A stretch of 64,000 bases of DNA, from the NCBI GenBank assembly GCA_028699915.1, contig JAQVTR010000002.1:1-64000 (forward strand). Reading direction: 5' to 3'. Shown here piece after piece: positions 36,314-41,042 of the stretch. How positions within the stretch are numbered: position 1 is the first letter of the stretch; each line of letters begins with the position of its first letter. The position numbers and the translations under genes were made by a program. This DNA comes from Fidelibacterota bacterium. Its GTDB lineage: Bacteria > Fidelibacterota > Fidelibacteria > Fidelibacterales > Fidelibacteraceae. The notes beneath the pieces were generated by a model, which worked only from the letters and a program-made list of their open reading frames with translations, had not been told where the DNA came from and made no database searches.

Positions 36314-37153
36314 ATGGCTATGAGAACAAGCTATAAATACTTCATTACGCTGCTTATTTTTCTGCTGACTTCCTGCGATATGCAACCCGGCGCCGATATT
36401 TGCGTCAGTCTGCCGCCGCAAGCTTATCTTGTCAGACGCATTGCCGGTGAAGCAATTCCCGTCAGCATTATGATCCCGCCGGGCTCCGCTCCGCCGACCT
36501 ACTCCCCCACACCCTCGCAAATCCGCGATCTGCAGCAGTGCCGGCTTTATATTAAAAACGGACACCCGGACTTCCATTTCGAGAAGAAGCACATCGATCC
36601 CTATCTCATGGAACATCCGGAAATTCATATTGTAGACATGGCGGATTCCATGGATATTATTCCCGGTGACGCCCATATCTGGCTGTCCCCCAGCATTATG
36701 CGAACAGCTGCCGGAAGGATATACCGGGAACTGAACGCGATCTGGCCGGAACGCAATGACTATTTTTATGCCAATTATCAGAATCTGATCCGTGACATTG
36801 ACAGTTTAGACCGGGAGCTTCAGAGCATATTCCGGGATCACCGGGGAGTGGAATTTTTAACCATGCATCCTTCATGGACTTATTTTGCACGGGATTACGG
36901 GATCCGTCAGATCAGTATTCGTGAAGAGAACAAGGCACCTTCCGCCCGGCAGCTCAGCGCCCTGATCGACCATGCCAAAAACTCCGGTATCCGGATTATT
37001 TTCATACAGAAAGAATTCGCTTTTGAACAGACGGATGTGCTGGCACGCGAAATCAATGCACAGGTCGTAGCGCTGGATCCCCTGAATGAATCGTGGCTGA
37101 ACAATCTGCGTCTGACCGGACGTATATTTTTACGGACTTTCAATGACCCCTAA
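36314..37153 (+). CDS. ZnuA/TroA-like metal-binding lipoprotein, first histidine ligand missing
   Basis: A 279-residue lipoprotein (LLTSC, C21). The fold of cluster A-I metal-binding proteins of ABC transporters is recognisable: VSLPPQAYLVRRIAGEAI, YSPTPSQIRDL, GDAHIWLSP (H121) and FLTMHPSWTYFARDYG (H185), then IFIQKEFAFEQTDVLA. The position that normally reads D-P-H-x-Y reads A-P-P-T-Y (59-63), so one metal ligand is absent. No permease or ATPase gene is adjacent. Its end overlaps the DMT transporter gene by 11 bp. It may bind metal differently or use the partner subunits of another transporter. Confidence 0.85.
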   Translation: MAMRTSYKYFITLLIFLLTSCDMQPGADICVSLPPQAYLVRRIAGEAIPVSIMIPPGSAPPTYSPTPSQIRDLQQCRLYIKNGHPDFHFEKKHIDPYLMEHPEIHIVDMADSMDIIPGDAHIWLSPSIMRTAAGRIYRELNAIWPERNDYFYANYQNLIRDIDSLDRELQSIFRDHRGVEFLTMHPSWTYFARDYGIRQISIREENKAPSARQLSALIDHAKNSGIRIIFIQKEFAFEQTDVLAREINAQVVALDPLNESWLNNLRLTGRIFLRTFNDP

Positions 37154-38084
37154 ACGGCCTGTCTTTTTTCTTTATTTTTTGTACCTGATCAATGTATTTC
37201 TCTTCGGCAGTTCCTGGATGTTCAATAAAATAGTCCTGAACGAAGGCGCCGGACCTGTCTGGTCAGCGGCCCTGCGTCAGGGTGTTGCGGCTCTGGTATT
37301 TTTGATCGTGTACTTAATTCGCAAACCCTTGATAAGACCAAATCGAAAGGAACTCATCCTTATTCTTCTTTATGGGATCTGCATGCTGGCGCTGGCACAT
37401 GTGTTCTCCTTTATGGGACAGCAGTATCTCTATTCAGGACTTGCCAGCATTATTTTTAGCATCTTCCCCATTCTCATCCTCCTGATCTCCGGAGTTCTAA
37501 TGCCCCGCCGGGAGCCGCTTACCCTAATGAAGATACTGGGCAGCATTATCGGCTTTTCCGGTATCATCCTCATATTTTACAGCCGGGATATCGCCCTTTC
37601 GGACAGCACTTCCTGGAAAGGGATCCTGCTTGTGCTGCTTGCGGTTTTTGTAAATGCGGTCCCCAATGTGCTCATTAAACGCGACGGAAAAAATATCGAT
37701 CCCCTCATCCTGAATGTCGGCGGGATGCTCGCAGCGGTTCTTTTTTTATTCCCCTTTGCATTATTGACGGAAGGCCTCCCCCGTTTCCCTCTGACCCCGG
37801 TCCTGATCCTGGCGGAATTGTACCTTGGTATTTTTTGCAGCGCACTGGCTTTCTTTTTGTATTTCTACCTCCTGCGGAAGATCTCCGTTTTTAAGATGTC
37901 CCTCTCCGCCTACCTTACGCCGCTTGTTGCGGTTTTTTTGGGCTATGTTTTTTTTGCTGAAAAATTATCCGTAAATCATTATATTGGAATGATATTAATT
38001 ATGACAGGCATTTTTATAACCGGGATCAGGCATGCAAGAAAACCTCGTACGAAAACGCTACAAGAACGCCATTTTGGATCTTGA
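37143..38084 (+). CDS. EamA/DMT-family transporter
   Basis: A 313-residue inner-membrane protein with ten predicted helices in two EamA repeats. FLFGSSWMFNKIVLNEGAGP opens the first half as in other drug/metabolite exporters, and LGYVFFAEKLSVNHYIGMIL closes the second. Substrates are usually amino acids or small metabolites, but the one here is unknown. Its start overlaps the metal-binding lipoprotein gene and its end overlaps ogt by about 50 bp, so these genes are tightly packed. Confidence 0.9.
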   Translation: MTPKRPVFFLYFLYLINVFLFGSSWMFNKIVLNEGAGPVWSAALRQGVAALVFLIVYLIRKPLIRPNRKELILILLYGICMLALAHVFSFMGQQYLYSGLASIIFSIFPILILLISGVLMPRREPLTLMKILGSIIGFSGIILIFYSRDIALSDSTSWKGILLVLLAVFVNAVPNVLIKRDGKNIDPLILNVGGMLAAVLFLFPFALLTEGLPRFPLTPVLILAELYLGIFCSALAFFLYFYLLRKISVFKMSLSAYLTPLVAVFLGYVFFAEKLSVNHYIGMILIMTGIFITGIRHARKPRTKTLQERHFGS

Positions 38085-38529
38085 AATCGCCGTTTATGCC
38101 GGAAGACTGATCGCAATCGCGTTTTTCGGTCTGCAGAAAGACCTTATTCCCCGTCTCCTCCGGTGTGGATACGAAGATTACGGTGAGGGCGATCCGGACT
38201 CGCTGTCCGCTCAGCTCAACACCTATCTCAACGGAGAAGATCCGCGCTTCAGCGTTGCGCTCCGTCTTTACGGCACGCCGTTTCAAATTGCCGTCTGGAA
38301 AGGTTGCATGCGTATTCCTTTCGGACAAACGCGTTCTTACCGGGAACTGGCCCGGATGGCGGGGTATCCCCGTGCGTTCAGGGCTGTCGGCTCAGCCATG
38401 GCAAAAAATCCGCTGCCGCTGATTATTCCCTGTCATCGTGTAATTCGTTCCGACGGCCAAACCGGAGGCTTCGCCGGCGGATCCGCGTTAAAAACCGCAT
38501 TATTAAATCATGAGAAAGGGTTGAAATGA
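38032..38529 (+). CDS. ogt: Methylated-DNA-protein-cysteine methyltransferase
   Basis: A 165-residue suicide repair protein for O6-alkylguanine. The helix-turn-helix part FQIAVWKGCMRIPFGQTRSY is followed by GSAMAKNPLPLIIPCHRVI with the acceptor cysteine in PCHRV, and GGFAGG near the end. All residues needed for alkyl transfer are present. It overlaps the DMT gene and its stop overlaps the start of the GH9 gene (ATGA). Confidence 0.96.
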   Translation: MQENLVRKRYKNAILDLEIAVYAGRLIAIAFFGLQKDLIPRLLRCGYEDYGEGDPDSLSAQLNTYLNGEDPRFSVALRLYGTPFQIAVWKGCMRIPFGQTRSYRELARMAGYPRAFRAVGSAMAKNPLPLIIPCHRVIRSDGQTGGFAGGSALKTALLNHEKGLK

Positions 38530-41042
38530 AACGCATGATCTTTATTCCGCTTCTATTCCTGTTTTTTGCAGTTTCCTGCAAGCTGGGGGAAGAAGCCGCT
38601 CCGGATTCATGGATCCGCATAAATCAGCTGGGATATAAGCCGGGCAGCAGCAAAACTGTCGTATTTTGCACCTTGAACGAAGACACGCGTCCGGAATTTT
38701 TCCGGGTGATCGATGCCGTCACGCATGCGCTGGTTCTCGAAAGTGACGCCATTGATTCCTGCGGTCCTTACGGCCCTTTTGCAGGAACCTACCGTTTTGA
38801 TCTTAATGCTTTTAATACGCCCGGGAAATATTACATCCGTTCAGAAAATGTGGAATCTCCGGCTTTCCGCATTGCGGACAATGTTTACGACGGAACGGCA
38901 GATTTTCTTCTGCGCTACATGCGGCAGCAACGCTGCAATTTTAATCCCTATCTCAACGATTCCTGCCACACTAACGACGGATTTATCGTATACGAACCGG
39001 GGAAAGAGGGCGAGCGTATCAATGTTACCGGGGGCTGGCACGATGCAACGGATTATCTTCAGTATACCGCGACATCCGCCAATGCCGTTTTTCAGATGCT
39101 TTTGGCATACCGGGAATATCCCGCTTCTTTCCGTGATGCCTACGATGCAGCCGGACTCCCTGGCGCCAACGGCATTCCGGATGTGATTGACGAAGCCAAA
39201 TGGGGTATGGACTGGCTTTCCCGTATGAATCCCTCCCCGGACCGCTTTTTCAACCAGATCGCCGATGACCGCGATCATTCCGGTTTTCGTCTTCCGACGG
39301 AAGATTCCGTCCGTTACCATCCCGAGTGGGAAGGCCGCCCGGTCTACTTTTGCACGGGAGAGATCCAGGGGCTGATGAATCACAAGAACCGGACAAGCGG
39401 AGTTGCGTCCACCGCAGGAAAGTTTGCATCGGCGTTTGCTATCGGCGCCCAAGTTCTGCCGGAATTCTATCCGCGCTACGCCGAAGCCCTGGAATTGCGT
39501 GCACAACTGGCCTATGCCTACGGCAAACAGTATCCCGGAGCCTGCCAAACTGCGCCCTGCGTTGCACCGTATTTCTACGAAGAGGATAACTGGGCGGATG
39601 ATATGATGCTGGCAGCCGCAGAACTCTACCGGCTGAACGGAAAAAAATATTTCAGGACAGAAGTGATGAAATTCGCCGAAATGGAGCCGGTATCGCCCTG
39701 GATGGGTGCCGATACGGCCCGGCATTACCAATGGTATCCTTTCTTTAATGCGGGCCATTATGAAGCGGCTTCCGTTGAGACCTTTGAGGAACGTGAAAAG
39801 CTGATCGCCTTGTACGGAGAAGGACTGGAACGTATCCGTCTTCGCGGAGCCGGAAATGCTTTCCGCAACGGAATTCCCTTTATCTGGTGCTCCAATAATT
39901 TTGTCACGGCAGCACTATCCCAATCCCTGCTGTACCGAAAGCTAAGCAATGATGCGCGTTTCGATGAAATGGAAGCAGCTTTGCGCGACTGGCTTTTTGG
40001 ATGCAATCCCTGGGGAAGCAGTATGATCGTGGGCTTGCCGGCTAACGGCGATACTCCGATAGACCCGCACAGTTCTCTGACCTATCTGTACGATATGAAG
40101 ATCGACGGCGGATTGGTGGATGGTCCGGTTTACGGCTCGATCTTCAATAACCTGCAAGGTCTGCGTTTGCTGAATGAAGATGAATATGCGGATTTCCAGT
40201 CCGATCTGGTGGTCTATCACGATGATGCCGGCGACTATTCCACAAACGAGCCGACCATGGACGGTACCGCCTGCCTTGTTCTCTATCTGGCTTCGCTGGA
40301 AAGTCCGAAAAACAATGCCTTTGCTCTCAGCGATGCCTACGGTGCCGTCGTTCGCGGCAATCCGCAGGAAAAGCGCATCGCCCTTCTCTTTTCGGCTCAC
40401 GATAAGGCAGAAGGCGGCATGTTCATTGCCGACAGTCTGAAAGCACTGGATGTCCGGGCATCCTTCTTCTTTACCGGCGATTTTTACCGAAACCCCTTAT
40501 TCAAATCCCTGATCAAACGCCTGATCGGCGACGGACATTACCTGGGCGCGCATTCGGATAAGCATCTGCCGTATAATGAATGGGACAGTAAGCGCACGCT
40601 AAAGGTAAGCGAGGAAACCTTTAAAGAGGACCTCCGTGCAAATTATGCGGCCATGGAGAATTGGGACATTCATAAGGAATCCGCCCGCTACTTTCTGGCT
40701 CCCTATGAATGGTATGACAAAAATATCGCACTCTGGACCTATCATGAAGGTTTGAAACTGATAAACTTCACACCCGGAACTTTGACGCAAGCGGATTATA
40801 CCACTCCCGGTATGGGCAGCAAATACTATGATAATGCCGCGATCTATCAATCCGTGATGTTCTTTGAAGACCGTAACACCCTGAACGGCTTTATCATGCT
40901 AATCCATCCGGGAACCGAAACGGAACGCGACGAAAAATTTTACCATGAACTGCCCCGGCTGATCCGGGAGTTGAAGGCAAAGGGCTATTCCTTTGTCCGC
41001 ATTGACTCAATGCTGGACCTGCCGCACGAAAAGCCGTTTTAA
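38526..41042 (+). CDS. Lipoprotein fusion of GH9 glycoside hydrolase and NodB/CE4-like deacetylase
   Basis: An 838-residue surface lipoprotein (FFAVSC, C18). Residues 28-115 are the Ig-like domain that precedes GH9 (IRINQLGYKPGSSKTVVF). The GH9 catalytic part runs from about 122 to 595 with GGWHDATDY (D173 and D176) and the acid glutamate E575 in TNEPTMDGTA. Residues about 615-830 are a polysaccharide-deacetylase domain with the AHD segment, the metal motif HSDKH (676-680), RYFLAPYEW and MLIHPG. It should cut and deacetylate beta-glucan- or chitin-like polymers at the cell surface. No other CAZyme genes or transport genes for sugar flank it. Confidence 0.88.
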   Translation: MKRMIFIPLLFLFFAVSCKLGEEAAPDSWIRINQLGYKPGSSKTVVFCTLNEDTRPEFFRVIDAVTHALVLESDAIDSCGPYGPFAGTYRFDLNAFNTPGKYYIRSENVESPAFRIADNVYDGTADFLLRYMRQQRCNFNPYLNDSCHTNDGFIVYEPGKEGERINVTGGWHDATDYLQYTATSANAVFQMLLAYREYPASFRDAYDAAGLPGANGIPDVIDEAKWGMDWLSRMNPSPDRFFNQIADDRDHSGFRLPTEDSVRYHPEWEGRPVYFCTGEIQGLMNHKNRTSGVASTAGKFASAFAIGAQVLPEFYPRYAEALELRAQLAYAYGKQYPGACQTAPCVAPYFYEEDNWADDMMLAAAELYRLNGKKYFRTEVMKFAEMEPVSPWMGADTARHYQWYPFFNAGHYEAASVETFEEREKLIALYGEGLERIRLRGAGNAFRNGIPFIWCSNNFVTAALSQSLLYRKLSNDARFDEMEAALRDWLFGCNPWGSSMIVGLPANGDTPIDPHSSLTYLYDMKIDGGLVDGPVYGSIFNNLQGLRLLNEDEYADFQSDLVVYHDDAGDYSTNEPTMDGTACLVLYLASLESPKNNAFALSDAYGAVVRGNPQEKRIALLFSAHDKAEGGMFIADSLKALDVRASFFFTGDFYRNPLFKSLIKRLIGDGHYLGAHSDKHLPYNEWDSKRTLKVSEETFKEDLRANYAAMENWDIHKESARYFLAPYEWYDKNIALWTYHEGLKLINFTPGTLTQADYTTPGMGSKYYDNAAIYQSVMFFEDRNTLNGFIMLIHPGTETERDEKFYHELPRLIRELKAKGYSFVRIDSMLDLPHEKPF

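Follow-up and report, generated by a model that had tools for sequence, protein, structure and literature searches.

The pairing of a deacetylase with a glycosidase is known elsewhere as a matter of separate enzymes. In the archaeal Dac and GlmA route of Thermococcus kodakarensis, the non-reducing N-acetylglucosamine (GlcNAc) of diacetylchitobiose is deacetylated and an exo-glucosaminidase then acts, the two enzymes being separate and GlmA belonging to GH35 (PMC6566704). VC0615, which with PBPRA0520 represents the GH9 exo-glucosaminidases of the Vibrionaceae, is encoded in a chitin-utilisation operon and hydrolyses the glucosamine dimer (GlcN)2 but not (GlcNAc)2 (PMC6096475), so that a GH9 enzyme of this type needs a prior deacetylase. 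Here we describe a gene at 38526..41042 on the forward strand of a 64,000-nucleotide stretch of Fidelibacterota bacterium DNA (contig JAQVTR010000002.1; the whole stretch is called the window), which encodes a GH9 domain and a NodB-fold, CE4-like domain in one chain. It differs from the archaeal pair in this joining of GH9 and NodB-fold domains and in a putative re-acetylation step. With VC0615 and PBPRA0520 it shares the GH9 family, the fold and the catalytic Asp/Glu; VC0615 is distant in sequence (profile E value 5.5e-15) and appears to have different loops, and the portion of PMC6096475 used here describes no deacetylase domain for the Vibrionaceae enzymes. We think it probable, if by no great measure, that the fusion protein processes chito-oligosaccharides by deacetylating them and then cleaving beside glucosamine. 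If true, a single bacterial polypeptide would do what the archaeal deacetylase-glucosaminidase route does with two enzymes, and would offer a candidate new NodB active-site arrangement.

GH9 enzymes of the BoGH9A and CelD type carry an N-terminal Ig-like domain, as does the window's protein (there Pfam CelD_N). The PDB names them xyloglucan-specific endo-glucanase and endoglucanase, and we know of no deacetylase domain in this type. Literature searches aimed at GH9-deacetylase fusions or at a GH9 chitin route showed no description of such a fusion among the papers listed. In the parts of two further papers that bear on the question, GH9 and CE4 are tabulated as separate entries for a gut Bacteroides clone (PMC5238381) and some xylanases are said to bear deacetylase domains (PMC4928363).

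Recurrence of the GH9 and CE4-like pairing

The fusion gene is a single intact open reading frame (ORF) of 838 aa with an ATG start. It opens with a signal peptide (38526..38579, forward strand, as are the window's features below unless stated) with the lipobox-like end AVSC, and this sequence, FFAVSC18, with its Cys found likewise in five same-genus homologs, is consistent with an earlier sequence-only reading that had called the protein a lipoprotein. A simple lipobox pattern was unmatched in 36 of 47 non-redundant fused homologs (the window's protein excluded and two contig-cut homologs dropped), a pattern that overlooked at least one Cys, in L009. The CelD_N Ig-like domain (residues 27-110, 38604..38855; PF02927, E 5e-15) is followed by the GH9 catalytic domain (residues 121-587, 38886..40286; PF00759, E 7e-66, 223.7 bits against a cut-off of 27.7) and the CE4-like domain (residues 606-833, 40341..41024), within which PF01522 (Polysacc_deac_1) matched residues 612-734 with E 3e-10 and 40.5 bits against a cut-off of 23.1. 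All three exceed the curated Pfam cut-offs, confirming that a GH9 and a CE4-type domain share one ORF. The mirror frame on the reverse strand contains stops, and a reverse-strand ORF of 305 aa lies inside the gene at 38841-39758.

The first homolog search gave 55 pattern stretches, which reduced to 46 loci, 35 of this family (L001-L035) and 11 remote GH9s. The two halves are fused in 25 of the 35 family loci (two cut by contig ends) and are adjacent separate genes in L018 and L020. Fusion in 25 homologous loci is more than chance, and the taxonomic search suggested with the earlier reading found it in both Neomarinimicrobiota, the likely phylum of the window's genome, and Bacteroidota. The nearest homologs (L001-L004 and L008; 73-85% identity over the best segments) are named Neomarinimicrobiota or Marinimicrobia, and a same-genus genome, G001, encodes a protein identical to that of L004. 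The window's genome (probably a MAG; 1.95 Mb, 115 contigs) yielded one GH9, that of the fusion, and one further PF01522 gene.

Outside the fusions, the GH9 and CE4-like halves are separate genes, often adjacent, that co-occur. GH9-clade membership was set at 38% identity or more, with remote GH9 hits under about 38% excluded from the counts in both phyla. In 395 Bacteroidota genomes, where at most two candidates were scored per genome and the counts are hence lower bounds, a clade GH9 was present in 40, a CE4-like gene in 41 and both in 36, so the CE4-like gene accompanies 36 of the 40 GH9-clade genomes compared with 5 of the 355 others (Fisher P 4e-41, inflated because shared ancestry is ignored). 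The 36 genomes with both comprise 23 with a fusion (G438 via its locus L118), eight with adjacent genes whose match ends lie within about 60 bp (G067, G129, G145, G168, G187, G203, G418 and G424) and five with the genes apart. Among 61 genomes of the window's phylum, its own included, GH9 was found in 20, the CE4-like gene in 20 and both in 18, eight of them fused; here the CE4-like gene is present in 18 of 20 GH9 genomes against 2 of 41 others (Fisher P 3e-11, inflated for the same reason).

The GH9 and CE4-like domains

The structure was predicted with AlphaFold2 from a 33-row alignment (mean pLDDT 82.9, pTM 0.71) and folds were compared by VIA-align. Residues 25-594 of the model matched the GH9 endoglucanase 3x17 with Z 35.0 (3.5 Å, 516 residues), and an (alpha/alpha)6 fold is predicted for the GH9 part; the GH9 glucosaminidases 6gdt (Z 29.6, 3.2 Å, 480 residues) and 5dgq (Z 29.0, 3.1 Å, 481 residues) also matched. 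The active-site residues named in the sequence-only reading are present and conserved across homologs, D173 and D176 (39042..39053) each in 79/79 rows and the catalytic acid E575 (40248..40250) in all 77 rows having a letter there.

For the C-terminal part a CE4/NodB fold is predicted, residues 606-833 matching BA0150 (4m1b) with Z 22.8 (2.1 Å, 198 residues), and one of the two refutations that the earlier reading had named, a C-terminal part lacking this fold, thus fails. Motif 1 (residues 622-630, 40389..40415), which had been noted as altered, reads FSAHDKAEGG in the window's protein instead of the canonical TFDDG and follows F-[TS]-[GA]-x-[ED]-x-x-[DE]-G in a 68-row alignment: position 626 is E/D in 67 rows and 629 is D/E in 66, with position 625 varying (D 31, H 28, G 8, A 1). 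The alteration is therefore not confined to the window's copy, and on this alignment it is a family trait in which two acids appear to stand in for TFDDG. The putative metal-site motif HSDKH (motif 2; residues 676-680, 40551..40565), named in the same reading, is likewise present, with H676, S677 and H680 invariant and the H-[ST]-x-x-H of canonical CE4/NodB1.1 kept in all 68 rows. Also invariant in 68/68 rows are, among others, F622, Y683, E728 of the family motif PPYEW (APYEW in the window; residues 725-729, 40698..40712), D757 (40794..40796), a possible motif 4 Asp, H794 (40905..40907), the probable motif 5 His, G796 and R801 (40926..40928). The canonical CE4/NodB1.1 deacetylases PdaA, BA0150 and Bc1960 share with this family the NodB fold, HSxxH and, probably, the motif 5 His. 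Canonical NodB motifs include a tandem Asp in motif 1 and an Arg in motif 3 (according to the relevant part of PMC10967932), neither of which this family has, and it carries instead the invariant PYEW Glu and R801. Because the altered motif 1 and the other motif residues are kept family-wide, the domain is, as judged from the alignment, a conserved non-canonical NodB group and not a single decayed copy.

Proposed function, gene context and alternatives

In our reading the protein would have two activities and work on chitin that has already been partly broken down, probably outside the cytoplasm. Its CE4-like domain, a putative deacetylase, would take N-acetyl groups off chito-oligosaccharides, and the GH9 domain would then cut the beta-1,4 bond beside the exposed glucosamine, with exo action somewhat favoured. 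The glucosamine may be re-acetylated at the inner membrane by a DUF5009/HGSNAT-like (NagX-like) protein, after which an MFS carrier would bring GlcNAc into the cell, where a ROK kinase would phosphorylate it and NagA would remove the acetyl group.

The co-occurrence of the two halves described above speaks for this route, and so does gene context, many unfused and some fused relatives lying among amino-sugar genes. In a sister genus of the window's phylum (G011, G013, G015 and G016), one shared locus type holds both GH9 and amino-sugar genes. In G015 it runs through the CE4-like gene, DUF5009, SIS (sugar isomerase), MFS, ROK, GH9 and a second ROK, then genes for a TonB-dependent receptor, a 716-aa protein without a name, a PorV-like protein and NagA, with three unrelated genes (potassium-uptake type and one unnamed) between CE4 and DUF5009. 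The NagA of G015, the one copy tested, scored 229.1 bits against the TIGR00221 cut-off of 225.65. In eight of the 12 genomes of this phylum having an unfused GH9 (the four above plus G033, G044, G050 and G053), SIS, MFS and ROK are no more than about 13 kb away from that gene; of the other genomes, G032, G036 and G037 gave no SIS match, and G017 is fragmented over contigs. A GH9 is found in 13 of 14 genomes of the phylum with a close SIS and in 7 of 47 others, a 35% SIS match in G038 being grouped with the latter. GH18 genes lie about 12-16 kb past NagA in G011 and G015 and, in G033 (L074), one is flanked by the genes of the TonB receptor and the unnamed protein.

In Bacteroidota, 37 regions were compared, 17 from the first homolog search (some cut short; L015 without a named phylum) and 20 from a second set. 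The context counts rest on tblastn; greedy ORF calls had overlooked SIS in L077 and L150, which left the following count of seven unchanged. SIS, MFS and ROK occur together near the GH9 gene in seven of the 37 regions (L006, L007, L010, L033, L034, L121 and L127), and DUF5009 also occurs in seven (L006, L007, L009, L010, L016, L034 and L127) and not in the other 30. Over the curated cut-off, DUF5009 was found in five copies scanned and HGSNAT_cat in three of these. L121 has a GH18 gene between ROK and the fusion, and in L147, which was found via its SIS gene and stands outside the 37, a GH2 that matches the exo-glucosaminidase CsxA (E 7e-165) is one gene away from GH9. An orthologous SIS (at least 70% identity) was detected in 8 of 395 Bacteroidota genomes, and GH9 in five of these eight versus 35 of the 387 others (P 4e-4). 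The partner genes point to GlcNAc-type sugars and GH18 to chitin, as far as gene identities indicate, and by analogy with the known systems a deacetylate-then-cleave logic would suit a GH9 fused to a deacetylase and encoded in loci that also have a membrane protein of glucosamine-acetyltransferase-like type. The sequence-only reading had proposed a target with acetyl or N-acetyl groups, not plain cellulose: in two phyla the gene context favours the N-acetylated, chitosan-like part of that proposal but not acetylated xylan as a target, no xylan gene having been recognised among the named part of the neighbours.

Several observations weigh against the chito-oligosaccharide route. The SIS/MFS/ROK set is missing near GH9 in 30 of the 37 Bacteroidota regions, the trio stands without a nearby GH9 in L148, L149, L150 and L151 (the last just 3.2 kb long), and the orthologous SIS gene is absent from 35 of the 40 GH9-clade Bacteroidota genomes. 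Most Bacteroidota copies, and the window's own, stand outside amino-sugar loci. In the window's genus no fusion gene was seen within the amino-sugar locus; this genus has a SIS-to-NagA cluster without GH9 (L075-L077; in the window's genome split over L078 and L079) and a DUF5009 gene elsewhere (L080). GH18 was matched in just two of 58 regions scanned at a 1e-15 threshold, L121 and L074, and the DUF5009 protein of L006 scored 40.6 bits against the NagX cut-off (NF046061) of 480. The GH9 is not nearest in sequence to the VC0615-type exo-glucosaminidase subgroup, its profile match being better to endoglucanase 3x17 (8.1e-47) than to VC0615 (5.5e-15). NagB was matched in 21/21 genomes searched and GH20 is present in 18 of 20 GH9 genomes of the window's phylum, and since both are common the proposed route is not the only one. 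A more complete picture, in which a one-chain deacetylate-then-cleave chitin machine with a rewired NodB site (acids 626/629 and the PYEW Glu728 taking the place of the two Asp of TFDD and the Arg of motif 3) and transmembrane glucosamine re-acetylation is shared horizontally between Bacteroidota and Neomarinimicrobiota, is tentative, and we would be somewhat surprised if all of it held.

The main open alternative is endo instead of exo action, in which an endo-acting, chitosanase-like GH9 would work on chitin that has lost some of its acetyl groups, the CE4 domain would ready the internal cut sites and further enzymes would complete the breakdown. We consider it unlikely, though deserving of serious attention. 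The loop before helix 456-474 has about 14 residues (442-455, helix limits read from the predicted model), compared with the long blocking alpha9-10 loop 404-442 of the Vibrio exo-enzyme (in the relevant part of PMC6096475), the top fold and profile match is an endoglucanase, and L147 pairs a clade GH9 with a separate GH2 exo-glucosaminidase relative. The model also has a long loop at about 235-293 containing the family-invariant R271, Y274 and Q281, however, and this might block the cleft.

Scavenging of peptidoglycan fragments (GlcNAc-MurNAc, the latter N-acetylmuramic acid) instead of chitin is improbable. The ROK, SIS and NagA genes would serve muropeptide sugars too, the solved relatives in the CE4 profile search include PdaA (1ny1, 4e-12), and the upstream gene in L137 is a candidate N-acetylmuramoyl-L-alanine amidase, judged by eye from a motif in the first 150 residues. 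This candidate was seen once, however, and the locus includes GH18 in two phyla, while one further locus has a relative of a GH2 exo-glucosaminidase.

We give a similarly low probability to the CE4-like domain being a sugar-binding pseudoenzyme with the GH9 acting alone. The tandem Asp of TFDDG is absent, as is the Arg of canonical motif 3 (RPPYG), with L/M/I/V in its place, and these absences also count against the chito-oligosaccharide route; the PDB includes a pseudoenzyme of the CE4 family, BA3943 (according to the titles of 6hm9/6hpa). Against this, divergent copies, among them free-standing ones, retain the acids at 626 and 629 and the invariant H676, H680, E728, D757 and H794, and decay would be unlikely to keep such residues.

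An enzyme for plant-type polymers, cellulose or acetylated xylan, is very unlikely: GH9 is chiefly an endoglucanase family and the Pfam and NCBIfam models matched by the GH9 part carry cellulase names, but the recurring named partners are amino-sugar genes and none of the named neighbours was recognised as a gene for xylan or cellulose, a weak point as family searches covered only a minority of the flanking genes. Since family models call such proteins cellulases, what is counted as cellulose use in Bacteroidota and Neomarinimicrobiota may in part be use of amino sugars.

Descent, upstream genes and neighbouring observations

In a GH9 tree built by a quick method with SH-aLRT support only, the window's genus falls within a clade of fused Bacteroidota proteins (support 99), apart from 10 unfused GH9s of its own phylum, and well-supported branches force at least four changes of phylum label. 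Because the window's copy is placed among Bacteroidota fusions, entry of the fused gene into its genus by horizontal transfer is the simplest reading of the tree. The CE4 tree also mixes the phyla (two forced changes), is weakly resolved and leaves the window's genus unplaced. Upstream of the fusion gene (36314..38529) Pfam identifies a ZnuA-like solute-binding protein, an EamA transporter and Ogt, the Ogt gene sharing 4 bp with the fusion gene. All three stand upstream in this order in L001-L004 too (one of the three cut in L003), which speaks against contamination. A connection through zinc between these neighbours and the CE4 domain is speculative.

Two candidate explanations were rejected. 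SIS is not a substitute for a missing NagB, 20 of the NagB matches above being over cut-off, and GH20 hexosaminidase is not absent, occurring in 43 of the 61 genomes of the window's phylum. The SIS_2 protein at L060:13807-14613, of the PRK02947 group, is in amino-sugar loci although NagB exists elsewhere, and nagB of the window's genome is split into two overlapping frames (G000:C72:87480-88255) by an assembly error or as a broken gene. Two genes of L147 with BLAST matches to a GH18 reference have no GH18 domain by Pfam and were not counted as chitinases.

A 700-716-aa protein lies between the TonB-dependent receptor and the PorV-like protein in both phyla (L061:4703-6850, L121:12098-14218 and L075:8042-10141); it matched no Pfam family in two copies scanned and is an unnamed companion of the uptake system, with a 26% relative in a different setting in L080. 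At L128:11401-13854 the gene after the CE4-like one encodes a PIG-L deacetylase. Close to the fusion at L033:11850-14585 is a sodium:solute symporter that is joined to a region resembling NANM (N-acetylneuraminate epimerase), and relatives of this symporter lie near GH9 in L018, L128 and L129. Class-A beta-lactamase-like genes lie upstream of the fusion in L012, L013, L014, L028, L031 and L124, and the one at L028:6621-7982 matches PF13354.

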